Assembly (NCBI GenBank): GCA_002840405.1
Contig: PHAR01000007.1
Span: forward strand, 200,271 to 264,270
Reading direction: 5' to 3'
Length of the DNA stretch: 64,000 nucleotides
DNA from: Deltaproteobacteria bacterium HGW-Deltaproteobacteria-8
GTDB taxonomy: Bacteria; Desulfobacterota; Desulfovibrionia; Desulfovibrionales; Desulfovibrionaceae
Positions within the stretch are counted from its first letter, which is position 1. Each line of letters begins with the position of its first letter. The notes under the pieces were generated by a model that saw nothing but the letters and a program-made list of their open reading frames with translations, ran no database searches and was not told the origin of the DNA. Below, one piece after another: positions 14,577 to 23,676 of the stretch. A program made the position numbers and the translations under genes.

Positions 14577-15194
14577 CTAGACCCGGATGACCTTGTCCGC
14601 CAGCTGCAGGCTGGTGACCACGTCGAGCATGTTGGTGGTCTCGCCGACCTGCTTGGCCTCCATGAGGTCGAAGAAGGTCAGGCAGGTGCCGCACACGAGC
14701 ACGTTGACGCCCTTTGCGGCCAGGGCCTGCAGTTTCTCCAGGCCAGGGTGGCCGGTGGTGGCCAGGCGCACGCCGCCGTTGACCAGGATGATGCGCCAGA
14801 GGCTCCCTCCCAGCTCCGGCAGGGTGGCCAGAAAGTTCAGCATGAGCTTGCCGCCCAGTTCGTCGCTGCCCGCGCCGATGCTCTCGCTGGCGATGAGCAC
14901 CACCACCTTGCCGCCCGAGGGCGCGGTTGGCGCGCAACACGGCTCGGCGGCCGTTGCGGCGGCCTGAACCGAACCGGCGCGCGTGGCGGTGAGGGTGCTG
15001 TGGCTGGGGGCTTCGGCCACGGCCACGGCGTAGCCCTTGCCGGCCAGCAGGCGCATGACGTTCTCGCGCGCGGCCGCGTCGTCCACCAGCACCACGAAGC
15101 TCTCGGGCGCGTCCTTCTCGATGCAGTCCAGACAGCGCATGACCGGGCCGGGACAGGCCAGGCCGCGACAGTCGAGGGAAATATCTTTAGGCAT
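14577..15194 (-). CDS. yedF: YedF-like sulfurtransferase-like selenium metabolism protein
   Basis: The 205-aa protein fuses an N-terminal TusA/SirA domain (CRGLACPGPVMRCLDCIE, with the conserved CPGP cysteine at about residue 14) to a C-terminal DsrE-like domain (about 95-205). The DsrE part keeps a cysteine pair in VLVCGTCLTFF. This architecture is the selenium-metabolism YedF family, frequently found with selenoprotein genes. That fits the predicted selenoprotein at 18429-18749. Its exact chemistry is not established. Confidence 0.85.
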   Translation of the reverse strand: MPKDISLDCRGLACPGPVMRCLDCIEKDAPESFVVLVDDAAARENVMRLLAGKGYAVAVAEAPSHSTLTATRAGSVQAAATAAEPCCAPTAPSGGKVVVLIASESIGAGSDELGGKLMLNFLATLPELGGSLWRIILVNGGVRLATTGHPGLEKLQALAAKGVNVLVCGTCLTFFDLMEAKQVGETTNMLDVVTSLQLADKVIRV

Positions 15195-16398: not shown

Positions 16399-17394
16399 CT
16401 ACTTCAGCAGCTCCACGACCTTGTCCACCACGGCAAAGGCGTCGGCCACGTAGAGCACGTCGGCCTTGCCCTGGGCCCAGCCGCAGCTGGCGTCCAGGTT
16501 GATGGCCCGGCGCTCGCCGATGAAGCGCCAGCCCACCACGTGGGGCTCCTCGCCGTGGCAGCAGGTGGCCAGGCCCTTCTGATGGCGCGGGGTGGAGCCG
16601 GTCTGGCCGACCTGGTGCATGTGCGTCAAGAACGGCAGCGCGCCGCCGTCGCCGCTCTGGTCCACCAGGGACTTGGAGCTGCCAAGGGAGCACTGGGTGA
16701 CGTTCAGCAGGCCCAGGATGAGCTGGCTGGCCTCGTCCAGGCGCTTGACCCCGCCAGCCTGGGACTTGCCCCAGCCAGCGCCCGCCACCAGCAGCATGTT
16801 GGCCTCGGGCCGGATGGTCTGGGCATCGGCCGCCGGGGACTTGATGCCCGTGACGACCGTGCGCGTGGCAACGGCGGGAGTGAGCATCTCCACGCTGGCC
16901 GCTCCGGGTGCGGAAACCGGCTCGAAGCAGCCCGTGTCCACGGTGACGAGCCAGGGCTTGGTGTCGCGCTCGATCTTGCCGACCATGCGCTGGCGGTAGA
17001 ACCAGCGGGTGGCCACGACCTTGCCGCCTTCCACCGCGAGTCCGGTCAGGCGGGTGTCCACTGCGGCGCCCAGGCGCATGGCAACGCCAGCGGCCACGCG
17101 GCTGGCGCGGGCAGTGGCGGGCATGACGATGAGGTCAGCGCCCGCAGCCTTGGACATGGCCTCGCAGGCCGCCGCGTCCGAGCCGTAGCGCGCCGTGGCG
17201 AAGTCCGCCCCGGCAACGCCATAGAATTTCACCGCGCCGCAGGCAGCGATCAAGTCTGCTCCGGCCTGGACCTCGGCCCCGTACAGGCCGATGGTCAACT
17301 CTCCGCCAAGGCCCTTGGCAGCGCCCAGGGCCTCACACGCGGCCTTGCCGAGACTGCCGCCTTCTTCCGTATGCGCAAGGAAAAGTATTTTCAT
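16399..17394 (-). CDS. etfA: electron transfer flavoprotein, alpha subunit-like
   Basis: The 331-aa protein has the EtfA layout: an N-terminal alpha/beta domain (MKILFLAHTEEGG, LIVMPATARASRVAAGVAMR) and a C-terminal domain with LLVAGAGWGK and HQVGQTGSTPRHQKG. The usual FAD-contact segment (GISGAIQH type) is not recognisable; an unusual Cys-containing stretch (KGLATCCHGEEPHVVG) occupies that area. The pair with etfB and the nearby ETF:quinone oxidoreductase suggests electron transfer to the quinone pool. FAD binding should be considered unproven. GGAG precedes the ATG. Confidence 0.75.
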   Translation of the reverse strand: MKILFLAHTEEGGSLGKAACEALGAAKGLGGELTIGLYGAEVQAGADLIAACGAVKFYGVAGADFATARYGSDAAACEAMSKAAGADLIVMPATARASRVAAGVAMRLGAAVDTRLTGLAVEGGKVVATRWFYRQRMVGKIERDTKPWLVTVDTGCFEPVSAPGAASVEMLTPAVATRTVVTGIKSPAADAQTIRPEANMLLVAGAGWGKSQAGGVKRLDEASQLILGLLNVTQCSLGSSKSLVDQSGDGGALPFLTHMHQVGQTGSTPRHQKGLATCCHGEEPHVVGWRFIGERRAINLDASCGWAQGKADVLYVADAFAVVDKVVELLK

Positions 17395-17417: not shown

Positions 17418-18221
17418 TTAAGCCCGGATCCAGTCCGCGATCTCGCGGGCGATGTCGTCCACCGAGGCGTCCTTGACGATGCGCGTCTCGCGGCGCTGGC
17501 TGGGCACCTCCACGCTCTGGTAGCGCAGGCCTGCGCCAGCAAGCGGCGCGGGCGTGGCCTTCTGGAGCGCGGGCATGATGAAGCGCATGTTGGCCATGCC
17601 CACCTGAGGGTTGTTCGGCGGCTCGGGCAGGCTTCCCGTGGCCCAGCCAAGCACAGCGGGCGCGCCCTGGCAGGAGGACTGCTGGTAGCTGCCGCCCTCG
17701 ATGCGCTCCAGCACGCTGAAGCTGCCGTCGTCAGCCATCTTGATCTCGTCCACGCCCTGGAACTGGTCGGTGACGCCCAGGAGCTCGCCCACCATCTGCA
17801 GGACCGCTCCGGTCCCGCGCGAGGCCGACTGCCAGCCGCCGAAGATCAGCAGCTTGGACTTGTCCAGCCCGGGGATCTTCTCCACGCCAGCCGCCAGGGC
17901 TTTGGCGGTCTCGGCCGCGTCGGTGAAGCCGCCGGCCGGGCCGTCCAGCACCACGATCTCAAAAGGCACCTTCTGGGCCACGTTCATCATGACCTGCTGG
18001 AGCTTGGCCTTGGGGCCCAGCGCCACGAGGTACACCTTGCCCTCGACCTTCTTGGCCAGGTTGGCGGCCTCGTAAAGCGCATGCCCCGCCCAGGGGTCAA
18101 GCACCGCAGGCAGCATCATCTCGTTCTTCAGCGCCGGGCCGGTGGGGCCGACAATGGGCTCCAGGGTCTGGAGCGGGTCGGGCACGATGGAGCCCAAAAC
18201 CACGATCTGCAATCCTTTCAT
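17418..18221 (-). CDS. etfB: electron transfer flavoprotein, beta subunit-like
   Basis: The 267-aa protein begins MKGLQIVVLGSIVPDPLQTL and contains the EtfB features NEMMLPAVLDPWAGHALYEA, VYLVALGPKAKLQQVMM and LLIFGGWQSASRGTGAV, the last near the nucleotide-binding loop. It partners the EtfA-like protein 23 bp downstream. The electron donor that feeds this ETF is not encoded nearby. It follows the DsrE-like selenoprotein gene after a 207-bp gap with a strong hairpin. Confidence 0.78.
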   Translation of the reverse strand: MKGLQIVVLGSIVPDPLQTLEPIVGPTGPALKNEMMLPAVLDPWAGHALYEAANLAKKVEGKVYLVALGPKAKLQQVMMNVAQKVPFEIVVLDGPAGGFTDAAETAKALAAGVEKIPGLDKSKLLIFGGWQSASRGTGAVLQMVGELLGVTDQFQGVDEIKMADDGSFSVLERIEGGSYQQSSCQGAPAVLGWATGSLPEPPNNPQVGMANMRFIMPALQKATPAPLAGAGLRYQSVEVPSQRRETRIVKDASVDDIAREIADWIRA

Positions 18222-18247: not shown

Positions 18248-18295
18248 TCGGGGGAGGAGGGGAACTTTTTGGGAAAAAGTTCCCCTCCTCCCCCG
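18248..18295 (-). other. 21-bp near-perfect hairpin between the selenoprotein and etfB genes
   Basis: TCGGGGGAGGAGGGGAACTT and its exact complement face each other around a short loop. It lies 26 bases before the etfB start on the minus strand. There is no T tract after it in that direction, so it may be an mRNA-stabilising or attenuating element rather than a full terminator. Confidence 0.7.
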
Positions 18296-18428
18296 AACCC
18301 CCTCCACCCTTGCAAAACTTTTGTTGGGGGTGGAGATGGCGTTACTTGCTCATTTCGTTTTCGTTCACCCCTCTGCCCAACCAAAAGATTACGGGAGGGG
18401 TGGGTCGGGGCGGGGGCCCCCGCGCGCC

Positions 18429-18749
18429 TCAATAATTTAAGATCTTGTCGGCATTTTTTACCAGCTCGTGCAGCTTCACCATGTTCGCGCGCCGGATAAC
18501 GTCGCTTTCCCCCACGCCGTGGAGGTCCATGCACTTGCCTCAGGCGACAAGCAGACCCTCGCTCAAGGAGAAGAGCTTCATCTGTTCCGCGATGGAGACC
18601 GCTCTGGGGTCCCCGCTGTCGAGGGCCACGGCCGGGCCGTTCAGGAACAGGGAAACCTCTTCGCCCTCATTCAGCAGGTGATTCCCGAAGCGCACAGCAT
18701 TCCACTGTATCTCAGGGTCTTTGCTCGACAAAACAATAAGAACGTGCAT
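18429..18749 (-). CDS. DsrE-like selenoprotein (in-frame UGA read as selenocysteine)
   Basis: The frame starts at 18749 (MHVLIVLSSKDPEIQWNAVR) with a GGGAGG box, runs 69 codons to TGA at 18542-18540, and continues in frame for 36 codons to a TGA at 18431. Before the first TGA is SEGLLVA; after it is GKCMDLHGVGESDVIRRANM, the normal C-terminal part of a DsrE-like protein. Cysteine homologues have C-x-x-C here, so the product carries U-G-K-C with Sec at residue 70. A stem-loop 14 bases after the UGA fits a bacterial SECIS. DsrE-like selenoproteins are a known family. The role is probably sulfur or selenium transfer linked to the adjacent ETF system (inference). Confidence 0.82.
18509..18525 (-). 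promoter_or_regulatory. candidate bacterial SECIS element
   Basis: On the mRNA, CCUCCAC and GUGGGGG form a 7-bp stem (one G-U pair) closed by the loop GGC. The stem begins 14 bases, and the loop 21 bases, after the in-frame UGA. The spacing and a G at the first loop position agree with bacterial SECIS features. The element lies within the coding sequence, as in other bacterial selenoprotein genes. Confidence 0.7.
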
Positions 18750-18786
18750 GACGCCCTCCCGGCTGAATGCTCCCGAGCCAGCCCCT

Positions 18787-20673
18787 CTAGTTCTCCGCCG
18801 AGTGCAGGCCGCCGGCGCCAGCCTGGAAGCTCACGTTGGCGCCCTCCCCGCCCTGGGGCGAGGGCTTGCTGCAATTCCAGATGCAGGCCCCGCAGTGCAC
18901 GCACTTCTCCCGGTCGAACAGCGGCGTGCCGCCGTCCGGGTTGGTGGTGATGGCCTGGCCGGAGCAGGCCTCGATGCAGACCTTTTCGTCGCAGGCCTTG
19001 CACACGTTGCGGCTCTTGAAAGTCACGTGGTCGCGGTAGCCCGCCGGGGCCTGGACCTTGCCGCCCATCAAGAGCGCGTCCTGGTGCGACACGAGCAGCT
19101 GCCCGTCGAACTCGATGGCGGGCCAGCCCAGGCGGTCCATGAGCGCGCCGTGCAGGGGCAGGCCCTTGTGCGTGCATTCCTTGCGGATCTGCGCGATCTC
19201 GTCAATGGGGATGCGGCCCCGGAAGAACTCCTCCAGGCTCGGGATGCGCTCATGCGGCTTCTTGGACGCGCCGGGCCAGAAGGCCTTGCCGTTGGAGAGC
19301 CCGGCCAGGGCCATGCCGATGAACCCCTGGATGACGCCCACCTGGAAGCCGTCACGCGCCTTCTCGGCGGCTCTGGCCTCCCGCTCCAGCCACGACTCGC
19401 GGCGGCGGCGCACGTAGGAACGCGTCAGGTTGTCCTTGGTGAAGGGCTTGCCGTCCTTCAAGAGCTCCAGCACGCTGACGCCGAGCAGCACGCCGCTGGT
19501 CCAGGCCTCGTCAAAGCCCGAGCCGGTGAGCACGTTGGTGGTGCCGCTGCCCTCGCCGATGCGCGCGAAACCGTCGCCCACCAGATGCGGCTCGCCCTTG
19601 CGGCCGGACTCCTGCAGACTTTTCGCGCCCCAGGAGCGCATGCGCCCGCCCTTCAGGTGCTTCCAGATATACGGGTGCTGCATCCAGTGCTGGAGGTAGC
19701 GGTAGCCGGTGCGCACGGGCGAATCGTACCAGGACGGCACGAAGATGCCGAGGCTGGCGATGTTGCCGGGGTAGACGTAGAGGAAGCCGAAAATCTCGGG
19801 CTCGGGGTAGCCCAGGGTGTGCAGCACCAGGCCTTCCTTCAGCTCGCAGCCTTCGGGCAGGTCCACCACCATCTTCATGCCCACAGCCCATTCGCGGGCG
19901 TGGTTGCCTGCGGGCAGGCCCAGCTTCTCGTCCAGGTGCCTGCCCACCGCGCCCACGGGTCCGTCGGCCACCACGGTGAGCTGGCTGCGGATGTCCATGC
20001 CGGGCATGAACCCGGCCTCGGGCTGGCCGTTTTTGTCCACGCCCTGGTCTTGCAAGCGCACGCCCACCACCACCTGGTCAAACATGATGGGCTCGGCCAC
20101 GGGGGTGCCGGGCCAGATCTGCGCCAGGCCCTGGCCCATGATCTGCCCGCCAGCCCACTGGTTGAACTGGCCCATGGACAGCAGAAAGCCGGGCTCCTTG
20201 CGCAGGAAATTCGGGATGTAGGGCAGCGCATAGGCATGGTTCTTGGCCAGGCCCACGGCGCGCAGGAAGGCGTCCTTCAGGCGCATGATAAGCGGCCTGC
20301 GGCTGGCGCCGATGGGGTCGAGCAGGTACACGACCTCCTCGTGCTTGACCTCGGTGGCCAGCGGAATCTGCGAAAGGTCGAGGTCCGGGAAGCTGGCGCG
20401 GATGCCGCGGCCCTTGGTGACCACGCCGGACACGCCGAAGCCGATGTCGTCGGCGCGCTCGTAGCAGATGACCTGGGGCGGCATGCCGGGCATGGCCTTG
20501 CTCTCGGCCACGGGGGTGCCGTCCTCGTTCATCAGGCCCTGGGACAGGGTGTGCAGAAAGCCGCCCATGGCCGGGCCAAAGCCCACGCAGGCGATGTCCA
20601 CGTCCATGCGCTGGCGCTCCACGCCCTCGGGCAATGCGCCGTCAGGCACTTGCGTTGCGCTTGTCTCGGTCAT
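18787..20673 (-). CDS. ETF:quinone oxidoreductase-like flavoprotein with C-terminal ferredoxin domain
   Basis: The 628-aa protein has an N-terminal FAD-binding fold (DIACVGFGPAMGGFL, about residues 26-40), a central GEGSGTTNVLTGSGFDEA segment typical of geranylgeranyl-reductase/ETF-QO enzymes, and a C-terminal Fe-S region with CKACDEKVCIEAC and CVHCGACIWNC. It probably takes electrons from the EtfAB pair encoded downstream and reduces quinone at the membrane. The start at 20673 follows the region after a terminator; the longer frame begins inside that terminator region and is rejected. A 37-bp gap separates it from the selenoprotein gene. Confidence 0.82.
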   Translation of the reverse strand: MTETSATQVPDGALPEGVERQRMDVDIACVGFGPAMGGFLHTLSQGLMNEDGTPVAESKAMPGMPPQVICYERADDIGFGVSGVVTKGRGIRASFPDLDLSQIPLATEVKHEEVVYLLDPIGASRRPLIMRLKDAFLRAVGLAKNHAYALPYIPNFLRKEPGFLLSMGQFNQWAGGQIMGQGLAQIWPGTPVAEPIMFDQVVVGVRLQDQGVDKNGQPEAGFMPGMDIRSQLTVVADGPVGAVGRHLDEKLGLPAGNHAREWAVGMKMVVDLPEGCELKEGLVLHTLGYPEPEIFGFLYVYPGNIASLGIFVPSWYDSPVRTGYRYLQHWMQHPYIWKHLKGGRMRSWGAKSLQESGRKGEPHLVGDGFARIGEGSGTTNVLTGSGFDEAWTSGVLLGVSVLELLKDGKPFTKDNLTRSYVRRRRESWLEREARAAEKARDGFQVGVIQGFIGMALAGLSNGKAFWPGASKKPHERIPSLEEFFRGRIPIDEIAQIRKECTHKGLPLHGALMDRLGWPAIEFDGQLLVSHQDALLMGGKVQAPAGYRDHVTFKSRNVCKACDEKVCIEACSGQAITTNPDGGTPLFDREKCVHCGACIWNCSKPSPQGGEGANVSFQAGAGGLHSAEN

Positions 20674-20716
20674 GCTCGTTCCCCCATGAGTGGCACTCTG
20701 GGCGTGCGTTGCCGCT

Positions 20717-20751
20717 ATAAAAAACCTTAGGCGCGGAGACACTCCCGCGCC
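20717..20751 (-). terminator. terminator downstream of the 560-codon unknown gene
   Basis: A 7-bp perfect stem GGCGCGG/CCGCGCC is followed on the minus strand by TAAGGTTTTTTATAG. It lies about 100 bp past the stop at 20854 and insulates the unknown gene from the ETF:quinone oxidoreductase gene. Confidence 0.75.
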
Positions 20752-22703: not shown

Positions 22704-23676
22704 CTAGCAGATGCGCGGCAACTGCTCCCCTTCGAGCATGCCCAAGAGGCGCTTGCCGCCAAGGCCCGTCTTGAGCAGCACCCGGCCCATTTGTCCGGGC
22801 TTGTCCGTGGCCACCATGGTGCCGATGCGCCTGGCGTCGATGGGCTTCCGGCAGGATGCAGATGAACTTGCCCTCATTGGCCAGGTACAGCGGGTCCAGG
22901 CCCAAGAGCGAGCAGCCGCCCTTGACCTCCGGCCTGACCGGGATCAGGTCCTCCTCCAGCTCGCAGGTGACGTTCGAGGCGATGGCGATCTCGTTCAGCG
23001 TGGTCGCCAGCCCGCCGCGCGTGGGGTCGCGCAGCACGTGCACGTCCGGCACGGTCTTCAAGAGGTCCATGATGATGTGGTTCAGGCTGGCGCAGTCCGA
23101 GACAACCGGGGTCTCAAAGGACAAGCCCTGGCGCGTGGACAGAATAGCCAGCCCGTGGTCGCCCAGCGTGCCGCTGATGATGACGGCGTCGCCGGGCCGG
23201 GCCAGGTCGCCGGCCGGGGCCGGGTCCACAAAGACCTCGCCGATGCCCGTGGTGTTGATGAAAATCTTGTCCGCCGCGCCCTTCTGCACCACCTTGGTGT
23301 CGCCGGTGACGATCCAGACCCCGGCCTCGCGCGCGGCTGCGCCCATGGACTCCACGATGCGCGTGAGGTCGTCGATGGGCAGGCCCTCCTCCAGGATGAA
23401 CCCGCAGGTGAGGTACCTCGGCTGCGCGCCCATCATGGCCACGTCGTTGACCGTGCCGTGCACGCAGAGCGCGCCGATGTCGCCGCCGGGGAAGAAGATC
23501 GGGTCGACCGTGAAGGTGTCGGTGCTGACCGCGATCTTTCCGCCCATGGAGAGCACCGCGCCGTCGTTCAGCCGCCGCAGCTCCGGGTTGTCGAAGTTCT
23601 TCAGGAACAGTTCGCCGATGAAGCGCTGGGAAGCCTTGCCGCCGGAGCCGTAGTCGAGGAGTACCTTGTCGCTCAT
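22704..23676 (-). pseudogene. hypE: hypE, hydrogenase maturation protein, frameshifted near the 3' end
   Basis: Codons from 23676 encode a normal HypE start (DYGSGGKASQRFIGELFL) and ATP-binding core through DPLYLANEGKFICILPE. At about 22843-22852 the frame breaks: the rest (ARRIGTMVATDKPGQMGRVL onward, ending QLPRIC and TAG at 22706-22704) lies in the +1 frame. Compared with usual HypE length, about 10 codons also seem missing at the break. HypE needs its C-terminal cysteine to carry the carbamoyl/cyano group for the NiFe site, and the frame-0 product would lack it. Either the gene is inactive or the sequence has an error. It is 6 bp from hypD. Confidence 0.75.

Follow-up and report, generated by a model that had tools for sequence, protein, structure and literature searches.

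A DsrE-like gene with an in-frame UGA between ETF-QO and EtfB genes in a Desulfovibrionaceae genome very probably encodes a selenoprotein

Introduction

In the window (the whole stretch of 64,000 nucleotides analysed here, from Deltaproteobacteria bacterium HGW-Deltaproteobacteria-8), a short DsrE-like reading frame on the minus strand is interrupted by a single TGA and lies between genes for an ETF-QO-like and an EtfB-like protein. Does this codon end the protein or encode selenocysteine (Sec), and does the position of the gene say anything about the role of its product?

DsrE/TusD sulfurtransferases belong to DsrEFH/TusBCD, with DsrF and DsrH or TusB and TusC as partner subunits. Members of the DsrE-like family that carry Sec are already on record. 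The available part of PMC1088965 places a DsrE-like protein (Pfam02635, UxxC, two sequences) among the families newly reported from the Sargasso Sea in 2005 and gives a SECIS element just downstream for the Sargasso sequence, and that of PMC1794560 counts a DsrE-like protein among the Desulfovibrio vulgaris selenoproteins (2006). As far as the accessible sections go, DsrE 1 and DsrE 2 are listed in PMC2398784, and the D. vulgaris-type protein WP_014524487.1 is listed in PMC13188914.

Results

The reading frame and its homologues

The features of the gene are as follows.

18429–18749, minus strand: predicted DsrE-like selenoprotein gene, 106 residues with Sec70 in U-G-K-C (frame and codons; Pfam PF02635; homologues sharing the TGA codon)
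18540–18542, minus strand: in-frame UGA, the putative Sec codon (same codon TGA in most homologues read, counts below)
18754–18760, minus strand: ribosome-binding-site-like GGGAGGG ahead of the ATG (read by eye, without a score)

The frame opens with an ATG at 18749, runs for 69 codons to the TGA at 18542–18540 and continues for 36 more codons to a final stop, which is also a TGA (18431–18429); the first-pass annotation had given the same coordinates for the single interruption. The standard bacterial code (table 11) yields the 69-residue ORF at 18749–18540 alone, the truncated product that had been foreseen for a conventional gene caller. With Sec read at the UGA, the motif is U70-G-K-C73. 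The UGA-filled protein matches Pfam DsrE PF02635 over residues 1–105 with 29.8 bits against a cut-off of 22.7, which agrees with the DsrE-like identity first proposed, and none of the NCBIfam models matched it at E ≤ 0.01.

A search of 247 genomes of the same bacterial family gave matches at E ≤ 1e-5 in 64 genomes and 72 match rows in all, with one TGA in 61 rows and none in 11. We fetched the loci of the best 66 of these 72 rows; among the remaining six, the G110 row falls within the locus fetched for its partner, and the weak rows of G161, G106, G130 and G083 and the second row of G167 were left out. The codon at the Sec position could be read in 64 of the 66 loci, L093 being out of register and L095 ending before the codon, and it is TGA in 60 and Cys in four. 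The 60 TGA rows comprise 58 close homologues and two members of a more distant Sec-DsrE group, and the four Cys rows comprise three distant paralogues (L096–L098, CGTC) and one close orthologue (L062/L028, 57% identical). The TGA sits at the first Cys of a C-x-x-C motif, as had been stated. The two members of the distant group, L099 (G014) and L100 (G020), have U-G-V-C and a predicted hairpin after the TGA. Two TGA-bearing DsrE rows each were found in G015, G133, G160, G188 and G226 in the family search, the second row of G133 being partial.

In a phylum sample, matches at E ≤ 1e-10 occurred in 69 of 395 genomes; counting a TGA anywhere in the match, the 78 matches had one TGA in 61 cases, a TGA and a TAG in two and none in 15. 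Among 20 named loci, the TGA is also present in those titled Desulfomicrobium (L115), Desulfarculaceae (L120) and Syntrophobacterales (L126).

Gene neighbourhood

The genes and elements around the selenoprotein gene are as follows.

18787–20742, minus strand: ETF-QO-like flavoprotein with a C-terminal ferredoxin-like stretch, start codon unsettled (Pfam ETFQO_UQ-bd, 42.3 bits, cut-off 27.7)
18248–18296, no strand: perfect inverted repeat of 23 nt with a 3-nt loop, a possible transcript boundary, in the gap between the selenoprotein gene and EtfB (sequence repeat)
17418–18221, minus strand: EtfB-like protein (Pfam ETF, 48.6 bits, cut-off 26.7)
16399–17394, minus strand: EtfA-like protein (Pfam ETF, 76.6 bits, cut-off 26.7)
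14577–15194, minus strand: YedF with TusA and DsrE domains, of a selenium-metabolism-associated family (NCBIfam TIGR03527, 197.6 bits, cut-off 110)

The ETF-QO-like protein, which several 4Fe-4S models match below their own cut-offs, is encoded upstream on the same strand, and its gene ends 37 nt before the ATG of the selenoprotein gene. The downstream order is EtfB, EtfA, an ORF without a Pfam or NCBIfam match, and YedF; YedF also lies near the selenoprotein and ETF genes in L041 and L053. The arms of the inverted repeat (18248–18270 and 18274–18296) fall between the selenoprotein gene and EtfB, and co-transcription with EtfB is therefore not assured. Of the operon proposed by the first-pass annotation, the close same-strand arrangement with ETF-QO holds and the continuation into EtfB is in doubt. 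Hairpin-like stretches before EtfB were also seen by eye in members of the genus without the selenoprotein gene in this slot.

The first-pass annotation had further suggested a link of selenol chemistry to electron input to quinone, which would make the protein a specific servant of the ETF/ETF-QO path. The 37-nt gap is consistent with such a role, as is the position of the gene directly after ETF-QO, on the same strand, in G000, G061, G134 and G144. These four, all of one genus, are however the only cases of adjacency to ETF-QO among the 61 close-family loci (L035–L095, Cys orthologue included), 57 of them with 2 kb or more of upstream sequence. Even within the genus the arrangement varies. 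ETF-QO orthologues at E ≤ 1e-60 are present in 11 of its 15 genomes, and the next gene is the selenoprotein gene in four and EtfB in another four (G098, G110, G168 and G029, where EtfB starts 98–259 nt on); the contig ends first in the other three (G122, G175 and G153). The selenoprotein gene is located elsewhere in G110 (with a frame break in the gene), G168 and G175, and the family genome search gave no match to it in G098 and G029. G182, a genome 84% complete, has the selenoprotein gene and no ETF-QO match. In G061, EtfB is separated from the selenoprotein gene by an ORF of 188 residues; the G144 contig breaks off within the selenoprotein gene.

The neighbours in other lineages differ: TauE/SafE with an ArsR-type regulator, TSCPD, NAD kinase-like, DksA-type, MnmE and CBS proteins at other loci, and LUD and UbiE-type proteins beside the Cys orthologue. 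A Pfam scan of 17 neighbour proteins returned a mixture of families, with three lacking a match. ORF clustering for a conserved, function-revealing neighbourhood gave fixed-position groups mostly of single genera (seven loci of g38, six of g5, and six to seven of g26); the largest two, with 10 loci each, were mixed in position or genus. A tree of 58 rows and 106 columns did not settle by bootstrap whether the placement beside ETF had a single origin (support 54/85); the rows left out were L094, which has a frame break, L093 and L095, each incomplete or out of register, the distant L096–L100, and the near-copies L049, L058, L060, L065, L066, L067 and L071. With four of 61 close-family loci, one genus and other neighbours elsewhere, the proximity to ETF is a local arrangement and does not mark the general partner of the selenoprotein. 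A dedicated function in the ETF/ETF-QO electron path to quinone is accordingly improbable, and the suggested link to quinone electron input is not supported. It is similarly a long shot that, in the few genus members concerned, the Sec-DsrE protein was recruited beside ETF-QO/EtfBA and YedF as a selenol-based coupler (persulfide or redox), joining sulfur/selenium handling to a quinone-linked flavoprotein path.

Two further elements were observed elsewhere in the window. A Type II hammerhead ribozyme match lies at 1198–1272 on the minus strand (Rfam RF02276, 62.4 bits, gathering score 37). The frame of hypE (23676–22704, minus strand) shows an apparent shift just after residue 273, at about 22838–22860; the usual C-terminal part of HypE, ending PRIC with the stop at 22704, is in another frame, through either a sequence error or a real break.

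A conserved hairpin after the UGA

18509–18525, minus strand: putative SECIS stem-loop with a 7-bp stem and a GGC apical loop (fold; conservation and covariation across 52 distinct sequences)

The stem CCUCCAC/GUGGGGG consists of a 5' arm at 18525–18519 and a 3' arm at 18515–18509 that enclose the loop at 18518–18516. It begins 14 nt past the TGA, and the spacing from the TGA to the loop is 21 nt; fold and spacing both match the hairpin first noticed at this locus. Its conservation was assessed in 66 Sec rows (58 close-family rows and eight named loci, 52 distinct sequences; L099 and L100 left out). All seven pairs form in 45 of the 52 distinct sequences and at least six in every one of them, with compensatory changes. 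In 1000 codon shuffles with family usage, fully paired sequences averaged 4.2 and never exceeded 12, so the hairpin goes beyond chance. In register, 98.1% of the cells are paired, and sliding the 3' arm by 1–3 bases reduces this to 26–54%.

The second stem pair is A-U in 26 sequences, C-G in 14 and G-C in five, with a mismatch in seven. Double-change cells number 22, compared with a mean of 13.7 in 1000 within-column synonymous-codon permutations, none of which reached 22. The same permutations leave a mean of 95.7% and a maximum of 97.3% of the cells paired; hence, the pairing depends largely on the protein columns, and the excess over this null is small though never reached. The loop is always GGN (GGT 23, GGC 22, GGG 5, and GGA 2 in the 52 sequences), and the stem codons that flank it are nearly fixed, with CAC in 50 of 52 and GTG in 52 of 52. 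In the close Cys orthologue, HAV replaces HGV (loop Gly to Ala) and the SECIS stem is lost, and its genome keeps a tRNA-Sec of 79.1 bits.

Selenium machinery of the genome

Genes for the complete Sec pathway were found in the source genome over curated cut-offs, in accordance with what the selenoprotein proposal predicts: selA (582.3 bits, cut-off 267.9), selB (381.4 bits, cut-off 242.25), the tRNA-Sec selC (81.2 bits, gathering score 47) and selD (323.1 bits, cut-off 125). The selD gene itself carries a single in-frame TGA, with a stable hairpin behind it. Only matches over the cut-off were counted as presence. Weak selB and tRNA-Sec matches occurred in 247 of 247 family genomes, and in 14 controls, weak matches to selB, selD and tRNA-Sec occurred in all 14, with 2, 2 and 5, respectively, over the cut-off; selA matched in four of the 14 and exceeded its cut-off in one.

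Coding constraint past the UGA

The homologues do not all end at the UGA. The frame beyond it is conserved in 54 full-length Sec ORFs of 106 codons, as expected from the coherence that had been noticed in the 36 codons. Across 1423 non-identical pairs of these ORFs, pN/pS is 0.32 for codons 1–69, 0.49 for codons 71–106 and 0.47 for codons 83–106, which lie beyond the SECIS element. Judged by these substitution ratios, the tail after the UGA is constrained, less strongly than the head. The final stop codons of the 54 ORFs are TAG in 23, TGA in 22 and TAA in nine.

These data bear on two other readings of the TGA. It might genuinely terminate a DsrE gene that is truncated or in decay, and indeed the table-11 ORF ends at this codon and the gene of the relative G110 has a frame break. 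Against this, 60 of the 64 rows that could be read share the TGA, and both the frame past it and the hairpin are conserved; we rejected the decaying gene as very improbable. A general code change, with TGA read as another amino acid, was likewise rejected and has next to no probability, as TGA terminates 22 of the 54 ORFs and the window gene itself (UGA is thus not reassigned in general) and the Sec machinery is complete.

Sequence comparison establishes the UGA codon, its hairpin, the Sec machinery and the coding constraint past the UGA. The reading of the UGA as Sec is very well supported, because the TGA recurs, the SECIS element is conserved and covarying, the close Cys orthologue lacks the stem and the sel genes exceed their cut-offs, and the full 106-residue selenoprotein, with UGA-70 decoded as Sec, is very probably made.

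Fold and possible role of the protein

The AlphaFold2 model has a mean pLDDT of 72.8 and a pTM of 0.69, with residues 71–86 below 50, and places residue 70 directly after the strand of residues 66–69. The top PDB match of the model in Foldseek is the DsrE protein 3pnx (E 5.8e-4, TM 0.73 by query, rmsd 7.2), followed by the DsrE protein 3mc3 (E 3.4e-3, TM 0.73 by query, rmsd 6.0) and, lower down, 2qs7, with unrelated folds interspersed; searching the PDB with a sequence profile yielded no related structure. The model thus gives moderate support to a DsrE fold, and the selenoprotein would share with the DsrE/TusD sulfurtransferases both the family and the predicted fold. The CGTC of the YedF in the window aligns with UGKC over 39 columns (hhalign with the selenoprotein profile, probability 33%, E 4.6e-4), and a CGXC is described in YedF in the accessible part of PMC5322559. 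YedF differs from the selenoprotein in its greater length, its TusA domain and the Cys in place of Sec.

In the proposed mechanism, SelB with Sec-tRNA would read UGA-70 as selenocysteine owing to the hairpin 14 nt downstream, and when Sec is lacking, translation would end after residue 69. The full product would be a small cytoplasmic protein in which Sec70 may serve as the nucleophile of the U-G-K-C pair. We favour, at roughly even chances, a role in selenol/thiol redox exchange via a Sec70–Cys73 bond; our second choice, tentative yet worth keeping in view, is that the protein relays sulfur as a persulfide in the manner of DsrE/TusD. The Sec homologue L092 (G044) has U-G-K-S, with Ser replacing Cys73. 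Not every homologue thus keeps the partner Cys, an argument against a strict Sec–Cys bond.

Discussion

The DsrE-like selenoprotein family has been known since 2005–2006, and the gene in the window is a further member of it, not a new kind of system. By published description, in the parts of the sources available, the protein shares Pfam PF02635 and UxxC with the DsrE-like selenoproteins of the Sargasso Sea and D. vulgaris, and orthology to the latter, compared by the description of family and motif, is likely. The first-pass annotation had not seen the link between selenol chemistry and quinone electron input described; within the portions of the open-licence literature at hand, we found no description of a linkage of a DsrE selenoprotein to ETF or ETF-QO.

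What the locus does offer is a correction of annotation, in which ordinary gene finding leaves a 69-residue stump in place of the 106-residue selenoprotein that is very probably made. According to the accessible text of PMC13188914, a review of 2026, the functions of a group of selenoproteins that includes the DsrE-like ones are largely uncharacterized, which makes the family worth a direct test. The many Sec homologues, the Cys replacement without the SECIS stem and the covarying 7-bp stem together form a natural set for studies of Sec-to-Cys swaps.
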